NCBI GenBank assembly: GCA_030430245.1
Contig: JAUIFY010000005.1
Coordinates: 1 to 56,465, forward strand
Reading direction: 5' to 3'
Source: a bacterium
GTDB lineage: Bacteria; Desulfobacterota; Binatia; UBA12015
DNA: 56,465 bases
This document shows positions 39,768 to 52,268 of the stretch, piece by piece (position 1 is the first letter of the stretch; each line of letters starts with the position of its first letter). A program made the translations under genes and the position numbers. The notes under the pieces were generated by a model. The model ran no database searches. It saw only the letters and a program-made list of their open reading frames with translations, and was not told the origin of the DNA.

Positions 39768-40343
39768 ATGCCGAGCGACCCTGAAGGGGACGAGGCGCCG
39801 GAGCAGGCGCCGGCCGGGGACGAGGCGAAGCCGGCCGTCGAGAATCGGTGGTGGGTCGACACCGGGACGAACAAGGAGCGGCGGAGCCCTGCGCGGGCGG
39901 AAGCGACGGAAGGGGGCCCGATCGTCGGGCAGCGGTTCTTCGACGTGGGGCGGGGCTTCGACCAGGATCGCGCACAGAAGCAGCTCACGGACTCGAACTT
40001 GAACCTCATCCGTGAGGCGAACCCCAGCGAGGGACAGTGGGCCTACATGTCCCTCATCGACGACACGTCCTCCCCCGAGCGGGTCGCCAAAGTGAAGCGG
40101 ATGCTTCGGCTGCCCAAGTGGGCCCGGGGAGTGCTCGTCGATTCGGGCAACTCGATTCGCGCGATCGCGACGGGCGAGCCCGTGGGAGAGAACGTGGTCG
40201 AGTTGACGATCGCGAGCCAGTCTTCATTCGACGCCTGGTCGGGCGGCGAGTGGGTCCGCGAGAAGGTCTTCCGAAACCGGGAGCGGGCGCTGCGGGAGGG
40301 CTCCCGGCTGATCGTTCGCTACCTGAAGAACCGCAATCGCTGA
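39768..40343 (+). CDS. Conserved-looking hypothetical protein
   Basis: 191 residues, soluble, no signal peptide. The first 50 residues are acidic, Pro/Ala/Glu-rich and probably disordered; the rest is a mixed alpha/beta domain with several Trp (NRWWVD, GQWAYM, DAWSGGEWV) and a basic C-terminus (LIVRYLKNRNR). I do not recognise the family. Codon use matches neighbouring genes, supporting a real gene. It stands in front of the TPR-LuxE-LuxC operon but is separated by the operon promoter in the 37-base gap. Confidence 0.55.
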   Translation: MPSDPEGDEAPEQAPAGDEAKPAVENRWWVDTGTNKERRSPARAEATEGGPIVGQRFFDVGRGFDQDRAQKQLTDSNLNLIREANPSEGQWAYMSLIDDTSSPERVAKVKRMLRLPKWARGVLVDSGNSIRAIATGEPVGENVVELTIASQSSFDAWSGGEWVREKVFRNRERALREGSRLIVRYLKNRNR

Positions 40344-40344
40344 C

Positions 40345-40373
40345 TTGCCTGCACCCGCTGTCGCGGGTACCTG
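40345..40373 (+). promoter_or_regulatory. Leaderless-type promoter of the LuxE/LuxC-aminotransferase operon
   Basis: TTGCCT (40345-40350), 17-base spacer, TACCTG (40368-40373), then seven bases to ATG 40381. No Shine-Dalgarno. It would drive the TPR, small-protein, LuxE-like and LuxC-aminotransferase genes as one message. Confidence 0.45.
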
Positions 40374-40380
40374 AACCGAC

Positions 40381-40722
40381 ATGGCCGGCAAGGAAGAGCT
40401 CTACGACGAAGGTCTCGATCTGGCGTTCGACGAGAACTACGAGGGCGCCATCGAGAAGTACGAGGCCGCTCTCGAGATCGACCCGGGGTACACCGACGCT
40501 CTGCACGCTCTAGCGATGGCACACGCCGAGACCGGCAACCTCGACGCCGCGATCGAGGTGGGAAAGAAGCTCTGCGAGATCGCGCCGGACGACATCCTCG
40601 CCCACACGAGCCTATCGACCTTCTACATGAACGCGAACATGATTCCGGAAGCCGAGGCCGAATCCGCCAAAGCCCGGATGCTCGATTGGAAGCGACAGCT
40701 CAAGGAAGGTGGAGACGCGTGA
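40381..40722 (+). CDS. TPR-repeat protein
   Basis: 113 residues with about three tetratricopeptide repeats: the first around YDEGLDLAFDENYEGAIEKY, the second around DALHALAMAHAETGNLDAAI, the third around AHTSLSTFYMNANMIPEAEA. The C-terminus has a short basic helix (KRQLKEGG). A cytoplasmic protein-protein interaction module, first gene of the LuxE/LuxC-aminotransferase operon. Its stop overlaps the GTG of the next gene by four bases. It may hold the small partner or the acyl enzymes together. Confidence 0.85.
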   Translation: MAGKEELYDEGLDLAFDENYEGAIEKYEAALEIDPGYTDALHALAMAHAETGNLDAAIEVGKKLCEIAPDDILAHTSLSTFYMNANMIPEAEAESAKARMLDWKRQLKEGGDA

Positions 40723-40991
40723 GCGAAGAGCGGCCGGACGAGTACTACGTCGAGAGACTGCTCACACGCGTGAAGCTGGTCATCGCCACCGACGACGACA
40801 TTCCCGTCGAGACGAAGCTCGAGACCCAGCCGATGCTCAAAGAGTTCGTGCGAACCCTGAGCGCACCGCCCGATCAGCAAGACCGAGAACGTGCAATCGG
40901 TCAACACCAGTTTTTACTCGACGCGCTCGACGACTTCCCGAACTGCACCGCGCTCCTCACAGCCCTGCGGAACTTCGTTCCCTACCTTTGA
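40719..40991 (+). CDS. Small hypothetical protein in the LuxE/LuxC operon
   Basis: 90 residues, GTG start with GGTGGAG upstream. Predicted mostly helical and acidic; ends in a hydrophobic stretch (LLTALRNFVPYL). It lacks the Asp-Ser-Leu phosphopantetheine site of acyl carrier proteins, so it is not an obvious carrier. Coupled on both sides: GTGA overlap with the TPR gene and TGATG junction with the LuxE-like gene. The conserved position suggests an accessory subunit. No family recognised. Confidence 0.65.
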   Translation: MSEERPDEYYVERLLTRVKLVIATDDDIPVETKLETQPMLKEFVRTLSAPPDQQDRERAIGQHQFLLDALDDFPNCTALLTALRNFVPYL

Positions 40992-42112
40992 TGTCTAGGA
41001 GCGCCGACCTCGACCGGGTCGCGGCGAACGTTCTCGACTTCATCGAGCGCCACACCGACGCGCCTCTCGAGCCCGACCCCGACGTCGACGCGGAGTTCGA
41101 TCGCCTCGCCCGCGACGTGTTCGCCTTCCAATACGAAGCATCCGACCTCTACCGTTCCTTCTGCGATCGCCGAGGCCTTCCCCCCGAGAAGCTGACGCAC
41201 TGGACGGAAATCCCCGCGGTCCCGACGGCGGCCTTCAAGACGCTCACGCTCGCATGCGGCCCCGCGGAGAAGACGTTTCTCACGAGCGGAACGACCCGGG
41301 GCCGCGAGACGCGTGGGCGACACCACGTCCCCCGCCTCGAGATCTACCGACGCTCGGCGCTCGCGCACTTCCGCCGCATGGTCCTGCCCGACGGCGTCCG
41401 CCCGGTGATGGTCGGTCTGTTGGGCGGTCCGGATCTCCTTCCGGACTCGTCGCTCGCGCAGATGGCCGAATGGATCCGGACCGACGTGTGCGAGGGTGCG
41501 GGCGAGTACCTCATCACCGAGGAAGCGTTCGACCCGGCCGCCGCCGCCAGGCGCGTCGCCGAACTCGCCACGTCCGGATCGTCCCTGCTCCTGATCGGGG
41601 TCCGCGTCGCCTTCACGACACTGCTCGAGTTCCTCCGCGCCGAAGAGCGGACGATCGAGCTGCCCCCGGACTCGCGCATCGTCGACACGGGCGGCCCCAA
41701 GGGGGGCCGGGCACTCTCCGATGCCGGATTCCTGTCGGCGTGCTGGCACCGACTGGGCGTGGCAGGGTACTACTGCGTGAACGAGTACGGCATGACCGAG
41801 CTCTGCTCGCAGTACTACGACGACGTGCTGGTCGAGCGCTTCTCCGGAACCAACCGGAAGCGACGAAAGGTCGGCCCGGCCTGGCTTCGAACCCGGGTGG
41901 CGGACCCGGTGAACCTCGCGCCCCTGGCCGACGGCAAGACCGGTCTCTTGTGCCATGTCGATCTCGCGAACGCTCTCTCGGTCCTCGCGGTTCAGACCGA
42001 AGACCTCGGCGTGAAGGAGGGCCGCCGCTTCCTACTCGAAGGACGCACGCCGGGCGCCGAGCCTCGCGGATGCGCGCTGGCCCTCCAGGACCTGCTCGCC
42101 GGGCCACGGTGA
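40991..42112 (+). CDS. LuxE-like acyl-protein synthetase
   Basis: 373 residues, the usual LuxE length. ATP-dependent acyl activation motif FLTSGTTRGRETRG (about 100-113), an aromatic/Gly segment GYYCVNEYGMTELCSQYY (ANL-like A5 region), and a C-terminal RGCALAL with Cys361, the place where LuxE carries the acyl group as a thioester. LuxE activates a free carboxylic acid as acyl-AMP, moves it to this Cys and hands it to the LuxC reductase. The start ATG is formed by TGATG with the preceding stop, and its own stop forms TGATG with the LuxC-aminotransferase gene. No luxAB is present, so the role is not light production. Confidence 0.85.
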   Translation: MSRSADLDRVAANVLDFIERHTDAPLEPDPDVDAEFDRLARDVFAFQYEASDLYRSFCDRRGLPPEKLTHWTEIPAVPTAAFKTLTLACGPAEKTFLTSGTTRGRETRGRHHVPRLEIYRRSALAHFRRMVLPDGVRPVMVGLLGGPDLLPDSSLAQMAEWIRTDVCEGAGEYLITEEAFDPAAAARRVAELATSGSSLLLIGVRVAFTTLLEFLRAEERTIELPPDSRIVDTGGPKGGRALSDAGFLSACWHRLGVAGYYCVNEYGMTELCSQYYDDVLVERFSGTNRKRRKVGPAWLRTRVADPVNLAPLADGKTGLLCHVDLANALSVLAVQTEDLGVKEGRRFLLEGRTPGAEPRGCALALQDLLAGPR

Positions 42113-44553
42113 TGCCGTCGTCCCCCCTCACGGCTCCGGAGATCGCGACACTCGTCGCTCGGCTGGAGGGCGGACGCCGGCGCCTGCGCCTCCGCTCCGA
42201 GCGAGACCGGATCGATCTCCTGGGCCGGGTCGCAGCGACCTGGCTCGACGATGGTCTGGCCGACGCCGCCGCCGAGGTGGGACGCACGACCGGCTACGCG
42301 CCCGCCATGATCGAGACGTGCCTCCAGCGCACGCTGCGTGCCTGGAGCGCGCGTGCGCTCCACGACCTCGTCCCCCGAGCAACAACCGCCGCCCCCGGAT
42401 CCGTCGCGACCCCTCCCGACCTCGTCGTGGCGGTGCTCGCGCAGAACACCCCCGGCCTCGCGATCGCGCCCACGTTCACGGCGCTCGCTCTCGGATCGGC
42501 CGTTCTCCTGAAGTCGTCGCGCGGCGAGCCCTCCTTCGCCCCCGAGCTGGTCGAACGCCTCGCGGCGGTCGATCCCGTGCTCGGCGAAGCCGCCGCGGCC
42601 ACGGTCTGGGCCGGCGGAGACCCGATCGAGTCGGAGCTGTTCGCTCGCGCCTCGCGTGTCGTCGTCTACGGAGGGCAGGACGCCATCGACCGAGCACGCT
42701 CCCTGGCCGGCGAACGCGTTCTCGCGTTCGGTCCACGCGTCAGCGTCGCCGTCGTGGGCCCGGGGGCACGCGTCTCCGAGACGGCGGCGGCACTCGCGCG
42801 GGATGTGGCGTTTCTCGACCAGCGCGGCTGCCTCTCTCCGCAGTGCGTCTTCGTCCACGAGTCGGTCGATCGAACCGCGCTGGCGCGCGCGCTCGCCGAC
42901 GAGCTGACGTCGGTCGAGGCCGAGTGGCCTCGTCGCGCGCTCGACGCCTTCGCGGCCCGGGAGTTCCGCGCCGCAGTCGAGGACGCCGAAGCGCGGTCTC
43001 TGGCCGGCGCCGAGGTCGAGCTGTTCGGCGGCGTTCGCGACCCTTGGGCGGTCGTCGTGGAGCCGGAGCGAGCGATCCTCCCGTCGCCGCTCGACCGCTT
43101 CGTGCGACTGCATCCCTTCCTCGGCGAAGAAACCCTTCGGACGAGTCTCGAGCCGATCCGGGGCCTCCTCGAATGCGTCGGCGTGTCCGGCGGCACGACC
43201 GAGCTCGTCGACGGCGTGCGCACCCTCGGTGCGGCACGCGTCTGCGCGATCGGCGAGATGCAGGATCCCCCCGCCGATTGGCATGCGGGCGGCCGACGGC
43301 CGATCGCGGCCTACCTCTCGTGGAGCAACCCGCTCCTCGGGGAAGCCGGGGAAGAACCGGATCGACGCGCGCGATTTCTCGCCCACGTCGCACAGACCTC
43401 CGACGCACCGCGAGGCATCGACGTCGATCGCGCACACGGATCCTGGGTGGTCGACCGCAGTGGCCGCCGCCATCTCGACCTGCTGGCCGGCATCGGAGTC
43501 GCTGCGATCGGCCACGCACACCCGCGCGTCGCCGCCGCGGTCGCGCGGCAGGCGACGCAGTACACGCACCTCATGGTGTACGGCGAGGACGTACTCGCGC
43601 CCCAGGTCGATCTCGCGGCCCGACTCGCATCGAAGCTGCCCCCGCACCTCTCGATGACGTACTTCACGAACAGCGGCGCGGAGGCCATCGAAGGAGCACT
43701 CAAGCTCGTCCGCAAGGCCACCGGGCGGAAGCGCGTTCTCGCCTTCGAAGGCTCGTACCACGGCGACACGACCGGGGCGCTGGCGCTCGGTGGCAACGCG
43801 TTCTATCGCGAGCCGTTCCGGCCCCTCCTCGAGCCGGTGGAGCACCTTCCCTGGAACGATCCGTCGGCCCTCGTCCGCATCGACGACGCGACGGCGGCGG
43901 TCTTCGCCGAGCCCGTACAGGCCGAGGGCGGCGTGCGGATTCCCTCCCCCGACTTCCTCCCGCGGCTGGCCGCACGGTGTCGCGAGGTCGGAGCGCTCCT
44001 GGTGCTCGACGAGGTGGTGACCGGGCTCGGGCGGACGGGGCGCTGGTTCGGTTTCGAGAACTGGCCCGGCTCCGAGCCGGACGTGCTCGTGCTCGCCAAA
44101 TCCCTCGGCGGCGGGCTACCCCTCGGCGCCTTCGTCTCCTCGCCGAACCTGCTCCGGGCTCTCTCCGAGGACCCGCCACTCGGGCACGTCACGACCTTCG
44201 GCGGAAACCCCGTCTGCTGTGCGGCCGCCCTCGCCTCGCTCGACGTCCTCGAGTCCGACGGCCTGCCCGATCGGGCCGCACGGGTCGGCGACCGCTTCCG
44301 CGCGCGACTCTCGGCCCTCGTCGGCCGTGGCGTCGTCGACGTGCGGGGCATCGGGATGCTGATCGGCATCGAGCTCGAGAGCCCCGAGCGAACCGTCGCC
44401 TTCGTCGACGCCTGCCGCCGCGCGGGAGTGCTCCTCGGCTGGACGCTCCACCACGACCGGGTCGTTCGTCTCGCACCGCCACTCACGCTCGAGGACGGCG
44501 AGATGGACATCGCCCTTCGCGTGATCGAGCGCGCGCTCAGTTCGTCGCCTTGA
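42112..44553 (+). CDS. LuxC-like acyl reductase fused to class III aminotransferase
   Basis: 813 residues in one frame without stop. Residues 1 to about 415 are a LuxC-type acyl reductase: LAQNTPGLAIAP near the NAD(P)H site and catalytic Cys240 in FLDQRGCLSPQCVF. From about residue 420 a complete class III aminotransferase follows: GHAHPRV, NSGAEAIEGALKLVRKATG, SYHGDTTGA, LVLDEVVTGLGRTG (PLP Asp) and Schiff-base Lys663 in LAKSLGGGLPLG, then TTFGGNP. The reductase would make an aldehyde from the LuxE-bound acyl group; the aminotransferase would turn aldehydes into primary amines. ATG overlaps the LuxE stop by one base. It overlaps the convergent sulfatase by 17 bases. Confidence 0.88.
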   Translation: MPSSPLTAPEIATLVARLEGGRRRLRLRSERDRIDLLGRVAATWLDDGLADAAAEVGRTTGYAPAMIETCLQRTLRAWSARALHDLVPRATTAAPGSVATPPDLVVAVLAQNTPGLAIAPTFTALALGSAVLLKSSRGEPSFAPELVERLAAVDPVLGEAAAATVWAGGDPIESELFARASRVVVYGGQDAIDRARSLAGERVLAFGPRVSVAVVGPGARVSETAAALARDVAFLDQRGCLSPQCVFVHESVDRTALARALADELTSVEAEWPRRALDAFAAREFRAAVEDAEARSLAGAEVELFGGVRDPWAVVVEPERAILPSPLDRFVRLHPFLGEETLRTSLEPIRGLLECVGVSGGTTELVDGVRTLGAARVCAIGEMQDPPADWHAGGRRPIAAYLSWSNPLLGEAGEEPDRRARFLAHVAQTSDAPRGIDVDRAHGSWVVDRSGRRHLDLLAGIGVAAIGHAHPRVAAAVARQATQYTHLMVYGEDVLAPQVDLAARLASKLPPHLSMTYFTNSGAEAIEGALKLVRKATGRKRVLAFEGSYHGDTTGALALGGNAFYREPFRPLLEPVEHLPWNDPSALVRIDDATAAVFAEPVQAEGGVRIPSPDFLPRLAARCREVGALLVLDEVVTGLGRTGRWFGFENWPGSEPDVLVLAKSLGGGLPLGAFVSSPNLLRALSEDPPLGHVTTFGGNPVCCAAALASLDVLESDGLPDRAARVGDRFRARLSALVGRGVVDVRGIGMLIGIELESPERTVAFVDACRRAGVLLGWTLHHDRVVRLAPPLTLEDGEMDIALRVIERALSSSP

Positions 44554-46423
44554 AGCGGTCCGTCTCCTGCTTCGTGATGGCTCCGACCGTCGCGGCGAAA
44601 CACTGGGCGATCTCGCTCCCGCGCACCTGCACCGTCGCGGAGGTCGAAGAGGCGAGAGCCTCCGTCACTCCGTCCGGAAGCTCGAGGCCGCGGCCGCCGA
44701 AGATCACCTTCGACTTTCCGACGTCACCGCCGATCAGCTGCATCTTGAGCGCGCCACTCGCCGACCCGAGCTTGTCCTTGTACTTGTAGCCCTTGCCCTC
44801 CGGCGCCTCGCCGCCCGCCGCCTTCCAGCATTCCCTACCGTCGCAACGGGCGCCGCCCCGAACGACGCGCATCTCGCCGACCAGCACGTCCACGTCGCCG
44901 TACAGGCAAACGGAGTAGGCCGTTCCGTCGGCCTCGGCGGGGTTCCCGAAATCGCTCTGGACGAGCGCAGGGCCTCTCGTGAGCTTGACGGTGACCTTGT
45001 CCCCGAGACCGCGGTTCTCCTTCCAGTCGAGCTTCGCCTTCCCATAGCCCGTGGTGCACCCATGATCGGCGCGCGTCGGGCAGGCCACGAGCCCGGACGC
45101 CTCCACGCCCTCCATGTGCTGCACGAGCGCGTCGTAGGCGGCCTTCTGCGCCTCCGTCATCCCGGAGTACGGCAGGAGGTTCGAATCCTCGAACGGACTC
45201 GCGGTCAGATCGAAGAACTCCTCGAACACTCCGTTGCGCCAGATCAGCTTGTACTGGCCGTCGCGAATCCCCTTCCGATGGTCGGTATACGGCCCGGAGA
45301 GACCGTTCGGCTCGAACTGCTCCGCATAGGCGTAGGGGCGCGCGGGATGCGTCCCGCGCGTGGGGTCCTGAACGTGCGGAAGCAGGCTCAACGAATCCTC
45401 CGCCGTCGACTCGAGGCCGAGGATGTCGGCGATCGTGGCGAACACGTCGGTCGACTGAACGAACGCCATGCTCTCGGTACCGGGGACGGCGTGCGGGCTC
45501 TTCACGATCAGCGGTACGTTGATGCCCCCTTCGTAGACCGTCGATTTGGCGTGCGACGAGACGAACGGAGACTCGGTGACTCCCGACGGAGTTCCGTTGT
45601 CGCCGAGGAACACGATCGTCGTGTCCGCGAGGATGCTCGCGGGGATCGAGTCGATGACGTTGCCGATCTCTCGGTCCATCGCCTCGACGGCCGCCTCGTA
45701 CTTCGAACGGTTGCTCGACCCCGCGTCGACGATCGTCGTCAGGGGAGGCGTCGGCACGTGAAACGGGCCATGCGGAGCGCTGAAGGCCAGGTAGACCAGC
45801 CACGGATCCTCGCCGAACTCGGCGATCTTCGCGATCGCCTCGGCCGAGTTGTCGTCGGTGGCGTACACCGAATGGCTCGTGATGATCGTCGGACTCCCCC
45901 CGTCCGTGTTCGTCGTCTTGGTCCAGTCGTAGTAGTCGTCGATGTTTCCGTTCAACGCGCCGGAGAAGGAGTCGAACCCCTGCTCGATGGGATGATCGGC
46001 GTCGTCTTCGGGTCCGACGTGCCACTTTCCGATCGCGGCGGTCGCGTGCGTGGCGCGCACCAACTCGGCGATCGTCGTCTCGGCGAGATCGAGCACCGCC
46101 GCGCCCGGGACACCGATGCCGGTCCGAAGTGCATGTCGACCGGTGAGGATCTGGGCCCTCGAGGGTGCGCACTTCGAGTTCGTGTAGGCGTTCCGGAAGA
46201 GCACGCCACCCGCCGCGAGGGCGTCGATCCGCGGGGTCGGTGGGGGGTCCGCACCCTCGCCGGGATGACCGTACGCCAGATCGTCCGAGTAGACGGCGAC
46301 CCCGTCCACCCCGAGGTCGTCGGCGACGATGATGAGGAAGTTGTCGCGGGCTTCGACTCGTTCCGCGCCGACCGCGAGCAACGAGAACAGACCGACGAGG
46401 AGGGACAGGCGCCGCAAGGTCAT
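44537..46423 (-). CDS. Secreted arylsulfatase-type sulfatase with C-terminal beta domain
   Basis: 628 residues with a Sec signal peptide (about 1-25). The sulfatase core runs to about residue 450: metal ligands IIVADDLG (D35, D36), formylglycine motif C85-A-P-S-R (SKCAPSRAQILTGRH), GKWHVG, APHGPFH and FLGDNGTPS. Cys-type maturation by formylglycine-generating enzyme is needed. The last ~170 residues are an extra domain with repeated Lys-rich beta strands (KAKLDWKENRG, GKGYKYKDKLG, KSKVIFGGRG, ATVQVRGSE), ending in KQETDRFKATN; it may bind glycan or the cell surface. The TTGACA/TAGTTT promoter ends seven bases before the ATG. Confidence 0.88.
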   Translation of the reverse strand: MTLRRLSLLVGLFSLLAVGAERVEARDNFLIIVADDLGVDGVAVYSDDLAYGHPGEGADPPPTPRIDALAAGGVLFRNAYTNSKCAPSRAQILTGRHALRTGIGVPGAAVLDLAETTIAELVRATHATAAIGKWHVGPEDDADHPIEQGFDSFSGALNGNIDDYYDWTKTTNTDGGSPTIITSHSVYATDDNSAEAIAKIAEFGEDPWLVYLAFSAPHGPFHVPTPPLTTIVDAGSSNRSKYEAAVEAMDREIGNVIDSIPASILADTTIVFLGDNGTPSGVTESPFVSSHAKSTVYEGGINVPLIVKSPHAVPGTESMAFVQSTDVFATIADILGLESTAEDSLSLLPHVQDPTRGTHPARPYAYAEQFEPNGLSGPYTDHRKGIRDGQYKLIWRNGVFEEFFDLTASPFEDSNLLPYSGMTEAQKAAYDALVQHMEGVEASGLVACPTRADHGCTTGYGKAKLDWKENRGLGDKVTVKLTRGPALVQSDFGNPAEADGTAYSVCLYGDVDVLVGEMRVVRGGARCDGRECWKAAGGEAPEGKGYKYKDKLGSASGALKMQLIGGDVGKSKVIFGGRGLELPDGVTEALASSTSATVQVRGSEIAQCFAATVGAITKQETDRFKATN

Positions 46424-46502: not shown

Positions 46503-46868
46503 TCAGACCCAGCGCCCCGAAATCCACACCCCGCCGTTCCAACGACCCGCGATCCAGGAACGCTTTCCCGCGGGCGGGAGGACCCACCCTCCGGCCACCC
46601 AGACGTACGCCCCGCCCGTCCGTACGTAGTGTCCCGCGCGCCACACGTACGCCTTGCCCGGGCGGGCCGGCCGCGCGAGGACGACGGCCGGGGCCGGCGG
46701 CGGAGGCCTCACGGTCGCGACCCGCACGGGGACCGTGCGAAGGACCCCGGGCGCGGGACGGGCCCGTACGGCGGGCCGCACCACCACGCGGGCGGGCGCC
46801 GGGCCGGCAGCACAGCCGAGAGCCAGGACGGTCGACACGAGGCCGAGGACGATGGCGCGGTTCTTCAT
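46503..46868 (-). CDS. Lipoprotein with WxxGxW repeats
   Basis: 121 residues. GGAGGAG five bases before the ATG. The N-terminus is a lipoprotein signal (LVSTVLALGC), followed by an Arg/Pro/Val-rich linker and three or four copies of the WxxGxW/Y motif: YVWRAGHYV, YVWVAGGWV, SWIAGRWNG and WISGRWV. The YXWGxW/BcpO-related repeat proteins are small outer-membrane or surface lipoproteins of unknown role. Monocistronic; upstream 180 bases hold the start of the ProA-like gene region. Confidence 0.75.
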   Translation of the reverse strand: MKNRAIVLGLVSTVLALGCAAGPAPARVVVRPAVRARPAPGVLRTVPVRVATVRPPPPAPAVVLARPARPGKAYVWRAGHYVRTGGAYVWVAGGWVLPPAGKRSWIAGRWNGGVWISGRWV

Positions 46869-47012
46869 GGCGTCTCCTCCGGGGCGATCTGCTCGCTTTC
46901 GATGCCCGTTGAACCCGGGAGCCCGCAGAACCCGTCGATCCTCGTGAAGACGCCGCGGGTGCCATGGCGATCGCCCCCTCCACGTTCGTCGAGGCCCGCG
47001 TCGGCCTCACGC

Positions 47013-47041
47013 TTGACTCCCTCAGCACCGTCCGCTGACCT
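47013..47041 (+). promoter_or_regulatory. Leaderless-type promoter of the ProA-like gene
   Basis: TTGACT (47013-47018), 17-base spacer, TGACCT (47036-47041; a poor -10), seven bases to ATG 47049. No Shine-Dalgarno. Same geometry as other leaderless candidates. Confidence 0.35.
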
Positions 47042-47048
47042 TCGGGAC

Positions 47049-48557
47049 ATGCCCGCGTGGTCACAGCTGGAGAAGATTCGACCCGGGACGTGCATCGTCC
47101 TCGGCGGAGACCGGGTCGTCGAAGTTCCCGAGGAGATCGTCGCGAAGTTCGCGCCGGGCGACGCGATTCTCCCGATCGAAGCGACCGGCGAGATCCTCCA
47201 CGTCCCGGCGGCCGAGCGGCGGGTGGCGAAGGAGACGGTCGGGCGGGCCGCCGCGGCGTTCGCGAAGATGGGTGCGGTCACCGATGCCCAGATCTCGACG
47301 TTCTTCGAGGAGTTCGCCACGCGCCTCGAGAACGACTCGATCTGGACACGGATCCAAAGGGTCAACGACGACGACGTCACCGAGGCGAAGTCCCGCGGTC
47401 GATCGACGACGCGCCTCGTGGCCGACGAGAAGCTACGGCGCGGGATGGTCGACGGACTTCGCGGTTGGATCGAGGCCCCCTCCCGCCGAGGCTCGATCGT
47501 CGAGACCATCGAGCACGACGGATGGCGCGTGGACCTGGTGGGCGCGGAGCTCGGAATCGTCGCGTTCGTCTTCGAAGGCCGGCCGAACGTACTCGCGGAC
47601 GCCACGGGCGTCCTTCGCGGTGGGAACACCGTCGTCTTTCGCATCGGCCGCGACGCCCTCGGCACGGCGCGGGCGGTCATGAACCTGGCCCTCGATCCGG
47701 CACTCGAGGCGGCCGGCCTGCCCGCGGGCGCCGCATGCCTCGTCGACAGCCCATCGCACGCCGCTGGTTGGGCCCTCTTCTCCGACGCACGCGTGTCGCT
47801 CGCGGTCGCGCGCGGCTCCGGTCCCGCGGTCGCGACGCTCGGCGGCCTCGCCCGTCAGGCCGGGATCGCAGCGAGCCTCCACGGCACGGGAGGCGCGTGG
47901 ATCGTCGCGAGCGAGCGCGCCGACGAGAGAGCGTTCCGCTCGGCGGTCGTCCACTCCCTCGATCGCAAGGTCTGCAACACGCTGAACGTCTGCTGCGTTC
48001 CCCGCGCGCGGGCGGCCGACCTCGTCCCGGCGCTCCTGGAGAGCCTCGCAACGGCGGGCGAACGCCGCGGCCAGTCCTTCAAGCTCCACGTCGTGCAAGG
48101 AGACGAGTCACACGTCCCGGCCGACCTCTTCTCGAAGGAGATCTCCGTGCGACGGGCCGAGGGCGACGTGGCCGAACGACAAGCGGAGCCGCTCCCCGAG
48201 AGCGATCTCGGGGTCGAGTGGGAGTGGGAGGAGACGCCCGAGATCACTCTCAAGATCGTCGACGACGTCGACCACGCGGTCGTGCTCTTCAACCGCCACA
48301 GCCCGCAATTCATCGCGAGCCTCGTGAGCGAGGACGGCGCGGAGCATGAACGTTTCTACTCCGCCGTGAACGCACCCTTCGTCGGCAACGGGTTCACCCG
48401 CTGGGTCGACGGCCAGTACGCCCTCGAGCGCCCCGAGCTCGGGCTCTCGAACTGGCAGAGCGGCCGTCTCTTCGGTCGCGGCGCGGTCCTGTCGGGGGAC
48501 AGCGTCTACACGGTTCGCGGGCGGGTCACGCAGACGAACCCCGACGTCGGGAGATGA
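47049..48557 (+). CDS. Glutamate-5-semialdehyde dehydrogenase-like (ProA family)
   Basis: 502 residues, about 80 longer than typical ProA. The aldehyde dehydrogenase-like fold is evident: FVFEGRPNVLADATGVLRGGNTVVFRI as the cofactor region, catalytic Cys in DRKVCNTLNVC, then KIVDDVDHAV and FTRWVDGQYAL plus the glycine-rich RLFGRGAVLSGDSVYTV near the end, which correspond to the ProA C-terminal signature but deviate from NASTRF and HARGPMGL. Extra N-terminal ~90 residues. No proB is adjacent and the key signatures are diverged, so it may act on another gamma-phosphate or aldehyde. NADPH-dependent reductase is the most likely class. Confidence 0.7.
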   Translation: MPAWSQLEKIRPGTCIVLGGDRVVEVPEEIVAKFAPGDAILPIEATGEILHVPAAERRVAKETVGRAAAAFAKMGAVTDAQISTFFEEFATRLENDSIWTRIQRVNDDDVTEAKSRGRSTTRLVADEKLRRGMVDGLRGWIEAPSRRGSIVETIEHDGWRVDLVGAELGIVAFVFEGRPNVLADATGVLRGGNTVVFRIGRDALGTARAVMNLALDPALEAAGLPAGAACLVDSPSHAAGWALFSDARVSLAVARGSGPAVATLGGLARQAGIAASLHGTGGAWIVASERADERAFRSAVVHSLDRKVCNTLNVCCVPRARAADLVPALLESLATAGERRGQSFKLHVVQGDESHVPADLFSKEISVRRAEGDVAERQAEPLPESDLGVEWEWEETPEITLKIVDDVDHAVVLFNRHSPQFIASLVSEDGAEHERFYSAVNAPFVGNGFTRWVDGQYALERPELGLSNWQSGRLFGRGAVLSGDSVYTVRGRVTQTNPDVGR

Positions 48558-51107: not shown

Positions 51108-52268
51108 TCAGGGAGCGGACTCCCGGGTGGCATCGGGCTCGTCCCACCCGTACCGCTCGAACAGGGGAGCGAGGCGCGTGCGGATCTCGTCCGCCTGGAG
51201 CCCGAACTCCTCGAGGCTGTACGTGTGACCGGAGCGGTGCTTCCCCTCGCGCTTGCCCTGCGCCTCGAGAAACTCTCGATACTCGACGCTCATCTCGAGG
51301 CCCAGGTCCGCGTAGACCCTCTGGATCGCCGCTGCGGCATCCGTCGTCGCCTCGCGGTAGTCGACGATGGCGCGCGGAGTCTTCGGAGAGCGATCCAGGA
51401 CCTCGAGTGGATGCATGTAGGTGTCGAAGGACTGATCGGCCAGAACGCGCAAGCACTCCGTCATCCGGTCTTCGTGCCAGCCGAGACGGCGCCAGCTGCT
51501 CTGCATCAACTTGAGCAAGCTCGGGATCGTCTCGTTCGGATTGCGCATCGTGGTCACGATCCGCGCGTCGGGGAAGGTCTCGATCAGAGCGGCGACGCGT
51601 CCCGCGAAGACCGGGTTCTTGGACAGGTGCGTCTTCTCCGGCCCGTTCAGGTGGAGCTGCCGACGCACGCACTCCTTGTAGAACTGCATCACACGCCGGC
51701 GCTTCTTCTCCGGCCACCGATCCACGTAGTAGAAGTCGAGATCGCCCATGTAGGGCATCTTCGTGATCCAGAATCCGGACGCCATCGAGTAGTAGAGGAC
51801 GATGTCGTCCTCCTCCGCCTCGGTGAGGCCCATCATGTGGACCTTGCGCACGGCCGCGTAGTGGCGATCCTCCCAGGCCTTCACGCACCTCTCGAGCACG
51901 CCCCCGAGCACCGCACGGTCGAAGCGAGCGAGGGCCCGGATGATCTTCTTCTGTAGAAGCGAGGGAAAGTACATCTCGTAGAGCAGGAACACGCTGAACC
52001 GTCCCTCGTCCGCACTCAGCAACCGGTGCACGAGCGTCGTCCCGCTTCTAGCGTGTCCTACGACGAACACGGGCGCCTTCACCTCGACCTTCCACAGTCC
52101 AGGGAAGAGGATCCCGTCGAGGAAGAAGCAGATGGCATGAAACGTCGAGACCAGCGGAACGGCCACGAGCAGCACCGAAAGGAAGTAGAGGCGCACCGCC
52201 GGCTGCTTCTCGCGCCACGCCAGCGCGATCATCCGGCGCCAGTTCGCGAAGTCGAAGTGGAAGAGCAC
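51108..52268 (-). CDS. Sulfotransferase family protein (membrane-anchored)
   Basis: 386 residues, GTG start. A hydrophobic segment at about 28-52 (YFLSVLLVAVPLVSTF) may anchor it. The PAPS 5'-phosphosulfate loop reads VVGHARSGTTLVHRLL (P-loop-like, about 69-84) and the 3'-phosphate site TTMRNPNETIPSLLKLM carries the conserved Arg and Ser. It transfers sulfate from PAPS to a hydroxyl or amine. The substrate-binding C-terminal half is unrecognised. Divergent from another sulfotransferase gene with 84 bases between start codons. Confidence 0.85.
   Translation of the reverse strand: MLFHFDFANWRRMIALAWREKQPAVRLYFLSVLLVAVPLVSTFHAICFFLDGILFPGLWKVEVKAPVFVVGHARSGTTLVHRLLSADEGRFSVFLLYEMYFPSLLQKKIIRALARFDRAVLGGVLERCVKAWEDRHYAAVRKVHMMGLTEAEEDDIVLYYSMASGFWITKMPYMGDLDFYYVDRWPEKKRRRVMQFYKECVRRQLHLNGPEKTHLSKNPVFAGRVAALIETFPDARIVTTMRNPNETIPSLLKLMQSSWRRLGWHEDRMTECLRVLADQSFDTYMHPLEVLDRSPKTPRAIVDYREATTDAAAAIQRVYADLGLEMSVEYREFLEAQGKREGKHRSGHTYSLEEFGLQADEIRTRLAPLFERYGWDEPDATRESAP

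Follow-up and report, generated by a model that had tools for sequence, protein, structure and literature searches.

The window analysed here is a stretch of 56,465 nucleotides (positions 1 to 56,465 of contig JAUIFY010000005.1, GenBank assembly GCA_030430245.1) from a bacterium of the class Binatia. It carries a run of overlapping genes in which a LuxE-like acyl-activating enzyme of the acyl-protein synthetase family (PF04443) is followed by a single protein made up of a LuxC-type thioester reductase and a class III aminotransferase. We consider it likely that LuxE, LuxC and the aminotransferase work as a single metabolic module, by which a free carboxylic acid is turned into the primary amine that corresponds to it. 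It is known that LuxE activates an acid, that LuxC reduces the acyl-enzyme to an aldehyde and that class III aminotransferases convert aldehydes to amines. LuxE would adenylate the acid with ATP, load the acyl group onto its C-terminal Cys361 and hand it to Cys240 of LuxC, which would reduce the thioester to the aldehyde with NAD(P)H. The pyridoxal 5'-phosphate (PLP) domain, through Lys663, would then transaminate the aldehyde to the primary amine, with glutamate as the probable donor. In the Binatota family to which the window belongs, the reduction and transamination steps would be joined in one protein. Each chemical step and the direction of the pathway are inferred from the enzyme families. 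The acid-to-aldehyde-to-amine route is the best interpretation because of the class-wide linkage of the genes, their correlated divergence, the conserved catalytic residues and the single merger of LuxC with the aminotransferase. This agrees in part with the reading proposed in the initial annotation of this DNA, whose four-gene unit and claim of novelty were not supported.

The LuxE-like protein scores 42.1 bits with PF04443 against a cut-off of 24.9 (E=6.8e-11), carries the SGTT and NEYGMTE motifs and has its catalytic Cys near the C-terminus. A PDB search related it to the LuxE chain 7xc6_E (E=8.9e-15). Cys361 is invariant in a 16-sequence alignment (A1) and at least 95% conserved over 61 loci, and the LuxE-like gene of this operon is the only place in the source genome where PF04443 is found. 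The LuxC domain, with 152.8 bits against a cut-off of 21, belongs to PF05893, a family of the aldehyde dehydrogenase (ALDH) superfamily, and is not an AAR-type (GluTR-like) reductase. Searched alone against the PDB, it matched LuxC 7xc6_A (E=7.4e-10) and, marginally, an ALDH (E=0.68); neither the PigE structure 4ppm nor an AAR was found at E<=10. Cys240 is identical in 61/61 relatives. The C-terminal domain scores 324.1 bits with PF00202 and has the PLP lysine of class III aminotransferases. All three catalytic residues, Cys361, Cys240 and Lys663, lie where the initial annotation had placed them.

The source genome is a draft metagenome-assembled genome (MAG), 87.5% complete and in 445 contigs, so a sequencing or assembly error that joined two genes had to be weighed. 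Nine further genomes of the family, from different projects, have the same open frame. No missed stop or frameshift between the two domains, one of the findings that the initial annotation had named as refuting it, appeared in any of them. Because the identical fused frame recurs in nine independent genomes, an artefact is rejected and its probability is practically nil. LuxC and the aminotransferase form one frame in all ten checked genomes, the window's included; the remaining members of the family have loci cut by contig ends or only partial matches.

The association of the three enzymes extends through the class. LuxE is present in 105/148 Binatia genomes and in 75/95 of those of good quality. 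Where a genome has both LuxE and the aminotransferase, the latter follows downstream on the LuxE strand, no more than 5 kb away, in 64 of 75 cases; in the remaining 11, the two genes are on different contigs in 7 and further apart in 4. In the other Binatia families sampled, LuxC and the aminotransferase are separate frames, usually in the order LuxE-LuxC-aminotransferase. In a maximum-likelihood tree of 61 aminotransferase domains, those from the ten fusion proteins group together in a single clade (100/100 support, one label change), indicating that the fusion arose once. Fusion in one clade and separate neighbours elsewhere is a Rosetta-stone pattern. The pairwise distances of the three proteins are also correlated, with Mantel r of 0.90 for LuxE-LuxC, 0.87 for LuxE-aminotransferase and 0.84 for LuxC-aminotransferase, and 0 of 999 permutations were as high. 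The set further occurs in MAGs of Methylomirabilota (in the order aminotransferase-LuxE-LuxC), Nitrospirota and Armatimonadota; in Methylomirabilota, LuxE is found in 11/95 genomes only. Two side observations concern the collected loci. LuxE and LuxC share a single open frame (830-853 aa) in L083 and L157 (family f9) and also in L085, which is the other fusion that the set allows. The contigs of L097 and L104 are titled as Klebsiella pneumoniae MAGs (CAMBZJ01, CAMBFS01) and hold Binatia-type loci; the titles are evidently wrong.

Several points count against this reading or limit it. LuxE and the aminotransferase are far apart on one contig in four genomes (G068, G019, G096 and G053). Shared ancestry alone also raises Mantel r, so the correlation supports joint function and does not prove it. 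The activity of LuxE may differ, because its score of 57 bits is far under the 550-bit cut-off of the NCBIfam LuxE equivalog, NF052244. The nearest cultured LuxE-LuxC relatives found have no aminotransferase and are paired with a short-chain dehydrogenase instead, and for this reason the amine step is lineage-specific. The two domains might share a protein and not a pathway, with the LuxE-LuxC aldehyde used elsewhere, for example for an alcohol, and the aminotransferase acting on another substrate. Gemmatimonadota and Chloroflexota have LuxE-LuxC loci without a close aminotransferase, Herpetosiphon loci have LuxE without one, and plasmids carry LuxE-LuxC with no aminotransferase nearby; a Zn-alcohol dehydrogenase-like gene also stands beside the operon in nine representative loci. 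However, the sampled Gemmatimonadota and Chloroflexota genomes, whose LuxE-LuxC go without the aminotransferase, contain no close aminotransferase (best matches about 41%). Together with the class-wide adjacency, the correlated divergence and the single fusion, this makes separate pathways quite improbable in our judgement, and we retain the acid-to-amine module.

The aminotransferase domain offers clues to its substrates. Its closest solved folds, which are also the best PDB matches of the model of the whole fusion, are ArgD of Thermus thermophilus (1vef) and putrescine aminotransferase PatA (4uox). Asp552 aligns with an Arg in the former and a Lys in the latter. In class III enzymes of the ArgD kind, the Arg at this position binds the substrate carboxylate. 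Arg786, kept in 60/61 relatives, occupies what we take to be the position of the glutamate/2-oxoglutarate-binding Arg of class III enzymes. Asp552 in place of the Arg of ArgD and the retained Arg786, read with what is generally known of class III enzymes, make an amino acid of the acetylornithine type an improbable acceptor and glutamate the probable amino donor. The possibility that this domain is the ArgD of the source genome was rejected: it scores 322-325 bits against the curated argD cut-off of 410.05, and because a separate ArgD above that cut-off (451.9 bits) is present at another locus, the fusion is not the arginine enzyme of this genome. In the AlphaFold2 model of the fusion, the mean predicted local distance difference test score (pLDDT) is 92.4, the domains are confident and confidence is low at residues 407-414. 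A fused protein of this kind would hold the reactive aldehyde close to the site where it is next used, and true channelling is possible; the model gives no argument for it, because a predicted template modelling score (pTM) of 0.63 leaves the relative placement of the domains unfixed.

The initial annotation knew of no described system with such a fusion. PigE and TamH, however, are earlier examples of one polypeptide combining a thioester reductase with a class III aminotransferase (PMC8341465, PMC9594044), the arrangement that the window protein shows with PF05893 and PF00202 in one frame. The overall design is therefore known; judged by domain families, it is the reductase that differs, being of the LuxC and not the AAR type, and LuxE replaces the adenylation-acyl carrier protein (ACP) component. 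In the biosynthesis of tambjamine YP1 by Pseudoalteromonas tunicata, TamA and TamH together produce amines from fatty acids in vitro, L-Glu being the amino donor (PMC9594044). TamA/TamH resemble the Binatota set in ATP-dependent activation of the acid, reduction of the thioester and class III transamination, and in having the reductase and the aminotransferase in one protein. Whereas TamH has the aminotransferase first and then an AAR-type reductase (Rossmann, Cys887), the window fusion has LuxC first and then the aminotransferase, and LuxE stands in place of TamA, an adenylation-ACP protein. TamA/TamH belong to a pigment cluster, and no pigment cluster was identified beside the window operon. 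In prodigiosin biosynthesis in Serratia, PigE (PDB 4ppm) reduces its thioester substrate to the aldehyde, which it then transaminates, as shown in cell lysate and not with pure enzyme (PMC8341465). Its order, reductase followed by class III aminotransferase, is that of the window fusion, and the aminotransferase domain of the latter matches it (NF053554, E=8.4e-82; 4ppm, E=8.4e-55). The match is confined to the aminotransferase part, residues 439-757, and at 275.8 bits is below the PigE equivalog cut-off of 850. PigE differs in its AAR/GluTR-like N-terminal domain and in receiving its substrate as a thioester, with no LuxE, where the window has LuxC and LuxE. That the N-terminal domain of PigE might itself be a LuxC was rejected both by the published description and by the LuxC-domain search, which returned 7xc6 and not 4ppm; the reductases of PigE and TamH are both placed in the AAR family (PMC8341465, PMC9594044).

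The bioluminescence reductase, a LuxC-LuxE complex of solved structure (7xc6), shares with the window set a homologous LuxE for acid activation and a LuxC for reduction to the aldehyde. It has no aminotransferase, passes its aldehyde to luciferase and includes the LuxD thioesterase, and the window LuxE is only a distant relative. That the operon does not serve bioluminescence, as had been proposed, agrees with the low LuxE equivalog score and with the absence of luciferase-like families among the window neighbours scanned with Pfam, a scan that did not extend to a genome-wide search for LuxAB or LuxD. Non-luminous LuxE and LuxC are encoded together in flagellin glycosylation islands, where, unlike in the window, they accompany ACP, FabG and glycosyltransferase genes; the Aeromonas class III aminotransferase lies in a separate (group I) island, uncoupled from luxC-luxE (PMC7874193, PMC4875605). 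In the open-access literature on LuxE/LuxC with an aminotransferase, only these islands and TamH/PigE were relevant.

What acid would enter the module? There is reason not to take a fatty acid for granted, because the nearest cultured relatives found pair LuxE-LuxC with a short-chain dehydrogenase, mostly behind thiamin pyrophosphate (TPP) riboswitches. The founding members LuxE and LuxC act on tetradecanoate, and an enoyl-ACP-reductase-like short-chain dehydrogenase/reductase (SDR; 149.7 bits with FabL and 106.8 bits with FabI, under the cut-off in each case) recurs beside 19 representative loci. Since TamA with TamH performs such chemistry (PMC9594044), conversion of a long-chain acid to a long-chain amine for a lipid or secondary metabolite, as in tambjamine, is a candidate, which we rate somewhat below an even chance. 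The SDR is not adjacent to the window's own operon, however, no ACP, pigment or lipid biosynthetic cluster was identified beside it, and the genes nearby include housekeeping ones.

The second candidate is a cofactor- or vitamin-type salvage of a small (hetero)cyclic carboxylate, with the Binatota aminotransferase producing an amine from a similar small compound. TPP riboswitches lie 5' of LuxE-LuxC operons in Azospirillum lipoferum, A. brasilense, Pantoea dispersa, Lactiplantibacillus plantarum and an NC10 MAG. As far as these operons are annotated, which the one in A. brasilense (L182) is not, they encode a transporter (an ABC importer of the NMT1/THI5 type in L177, a nucleobase-type permease in L180), a short-chain dehydrogenase, or both. 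The closest cultured LuxE relatives found in plasmid records are 29-40% identical, and the annotated ones likewise combine LuxE-LuxC with a short-chain dehydrogenase gene and, in many cases, an importer gene; a Priestia LuxE-LuxC locus (L179) has no TPP riboswitch. Judged from their gene content, the riboswitch-linked LuxE-LuxC-dehydrogenase operons probably serve to reduce a carboxylate related to thiamin, giving the alcohol, an activity for which no description was found in open-access papers. The extension to Binatota is unlikely in our view. No importer is a constant neighbour there, the two riboswitch-linked relatives that were placed in the LuxE tree form, with the NC10 one, a separate clade there, and none of the 15 aminotransferase-bearing loci scanned, the window included, has a TPP riboswitch. 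This last point says little, because the source genome has no TPP riboswitch anywhere. Both candidates concern the substrate only and leave the acid-to-amine module as it stands.

The operon as delimited at first (40345-44553) proved correct at its end and in its overlapping junctions (Table 1), and its first start codon is at 40381, 36 bases downstream of the proposed start. Of its four members, LuxE, LuxC and the aminotransferase stay linked, and the four-gene order with the tetratricopeptide repeat (TPR) and 90-aa genes is found in most genera of the window's family only. Over 119 loci, the two small genes are on the same strand in 16 and both opposite in 28, the TPR gene alone is present and opposite in 10, and in 65 they are absent or lie beyond the end of the available sequence; the count includes some duplicates. 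The constant unit is LuxE, LuxC and the aminotransferase, and the small genes are non-constant neighbours, with the TPR gene probably cotranscribed with the enzyme genes in the window. The 90-aa protein is conserved in many Binatia and matches nothing in Pfam or NCBIfam. Its predicted fold, a four-helix bundle (AlphaFold2 mean pLDDT 95.2), has no PDB match at E<=0.001 and gave no function.

In Binatia, prfB and genes resembling those for Lnt, YbeY and PhoH, all but prfB named from reading the sequences, recur around the operon, a setting unlike a mobile biosynthetic cluster. The product could not be read from the neighbours: the Pfam and NCBIfam matches (prfB, a ProA-like protein below cut-off, a sulfatase, a sulfotransferase, an AMP-ligase, an SDR and a Zn-alcohol dehydrogenase) form no cluster that names it. 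The best plasmid match to the aminotransferase, from Aureibacter (44%), adjoins a GNAT acetyltransferase and lacks LuxE/LuxC. Elsewhere in the window, 39768-40340 encodes a 191-aa protein with no Pfam or NCBIfam match, conserved close to the operon at nine of the representative loci (cluster c4), and 46713-48554 a glutamate-5-semialdehyde dehydrogenase-like protein (120.8 bits, ProA cut-off 289) with a long N-terminal frame extension. A sulfatase (44537-46423) and a sulfotransferase-family gene (51108-52268) lie about 5 kb apart, separated by prfB and a gene for an M23 peptidase.

Table 1. Features of the window operon, and TPP riboswitches at related loci (coordinates of the respective locus)
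Feature	Position	Strand	Details
TPR-repeat protein gene	40381..40722	+	ATG start; 113 aa; TPR_2 E=3.5e-12 (Pfam)
90-aa protein gene	40719..40991	+	GTG start; GTGA overlap with TPR stop
LuxE-like gene	40991..42112	+	ATG start; TGATG overlap; 373 aa
LuxE catalytic Cys361 codon	42071..42073	+	PRGC motif; ATG numbering (362 in P0003)
LuxC-aminotransferase fusion gene	42112..44553	+	ATG start; TGATG overlap with LuxE stop; 813 aa
LuxC domain (PF05893), residues 34-392	42211..43287	+	E=1.7e-44
LuxC catalytic Cys240 codon	42829..42831	+	GCLSP motif; aligns with QQAC motif of LuxC 7xc6_A
Inter-domain linker, residues 393-434	43288..43413	+	length varies among fused relatives; low pLDDT at 407-414
Class III aminotransferase domain (PF00202), residues 435-809	43414..44538	+	E=1.5e-96
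Asp552 codon	43765..43767	+	HGD motif; D in 61/61 relatives
PLP Lys663 codon	44098..44100	+	at least 95% conserved over 61 relatives
TPP riboswitch (RF00059), A. lipoferum L177	8728-8860		upstream of LuxE-LuxC operon without aminotransferase
TPP riboswitch (RF00059), P. dispersa L178	8761-8890		as above
TPP riboswitch (RF00059), A. brasilense L182	7728-7857		as above
TPP riboswitch (RF00059), L. plantarum L180	1390-1497		as above
TPP riboswitch (RF00059), NC10 MAG L159	6467-6580		as above

We are evenly divided on a wider proposal, that this is an undescribed acid-to-amine pathway whose reductase is independent of those of TamA/TamH and PigE, near-universal in many Binatota families and found also in some members of Methylomirabilota, Nitrospirota and Armatimonadota, and that its amine serves ordinary physiology and not a secondary-metabolite cluster. 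If the acid-to-amine reading is true, a conserved route to an undescribed product would run across a whole uncultured phylum, and the fusion proteins would be ready-made acid-to-amine biocatalysts with a LuxC-type reductase. Because the dehydrogenase version is linked to TPP riboswitches, a role in thiamin salvage can be tested directly in culturable bacteria. On the acid-to-amine reading, LuxE-LuxC would be a general acid-reducing pair, whose partner, be it luciferase, dehydrogenase or aminotransferase, sets the product.

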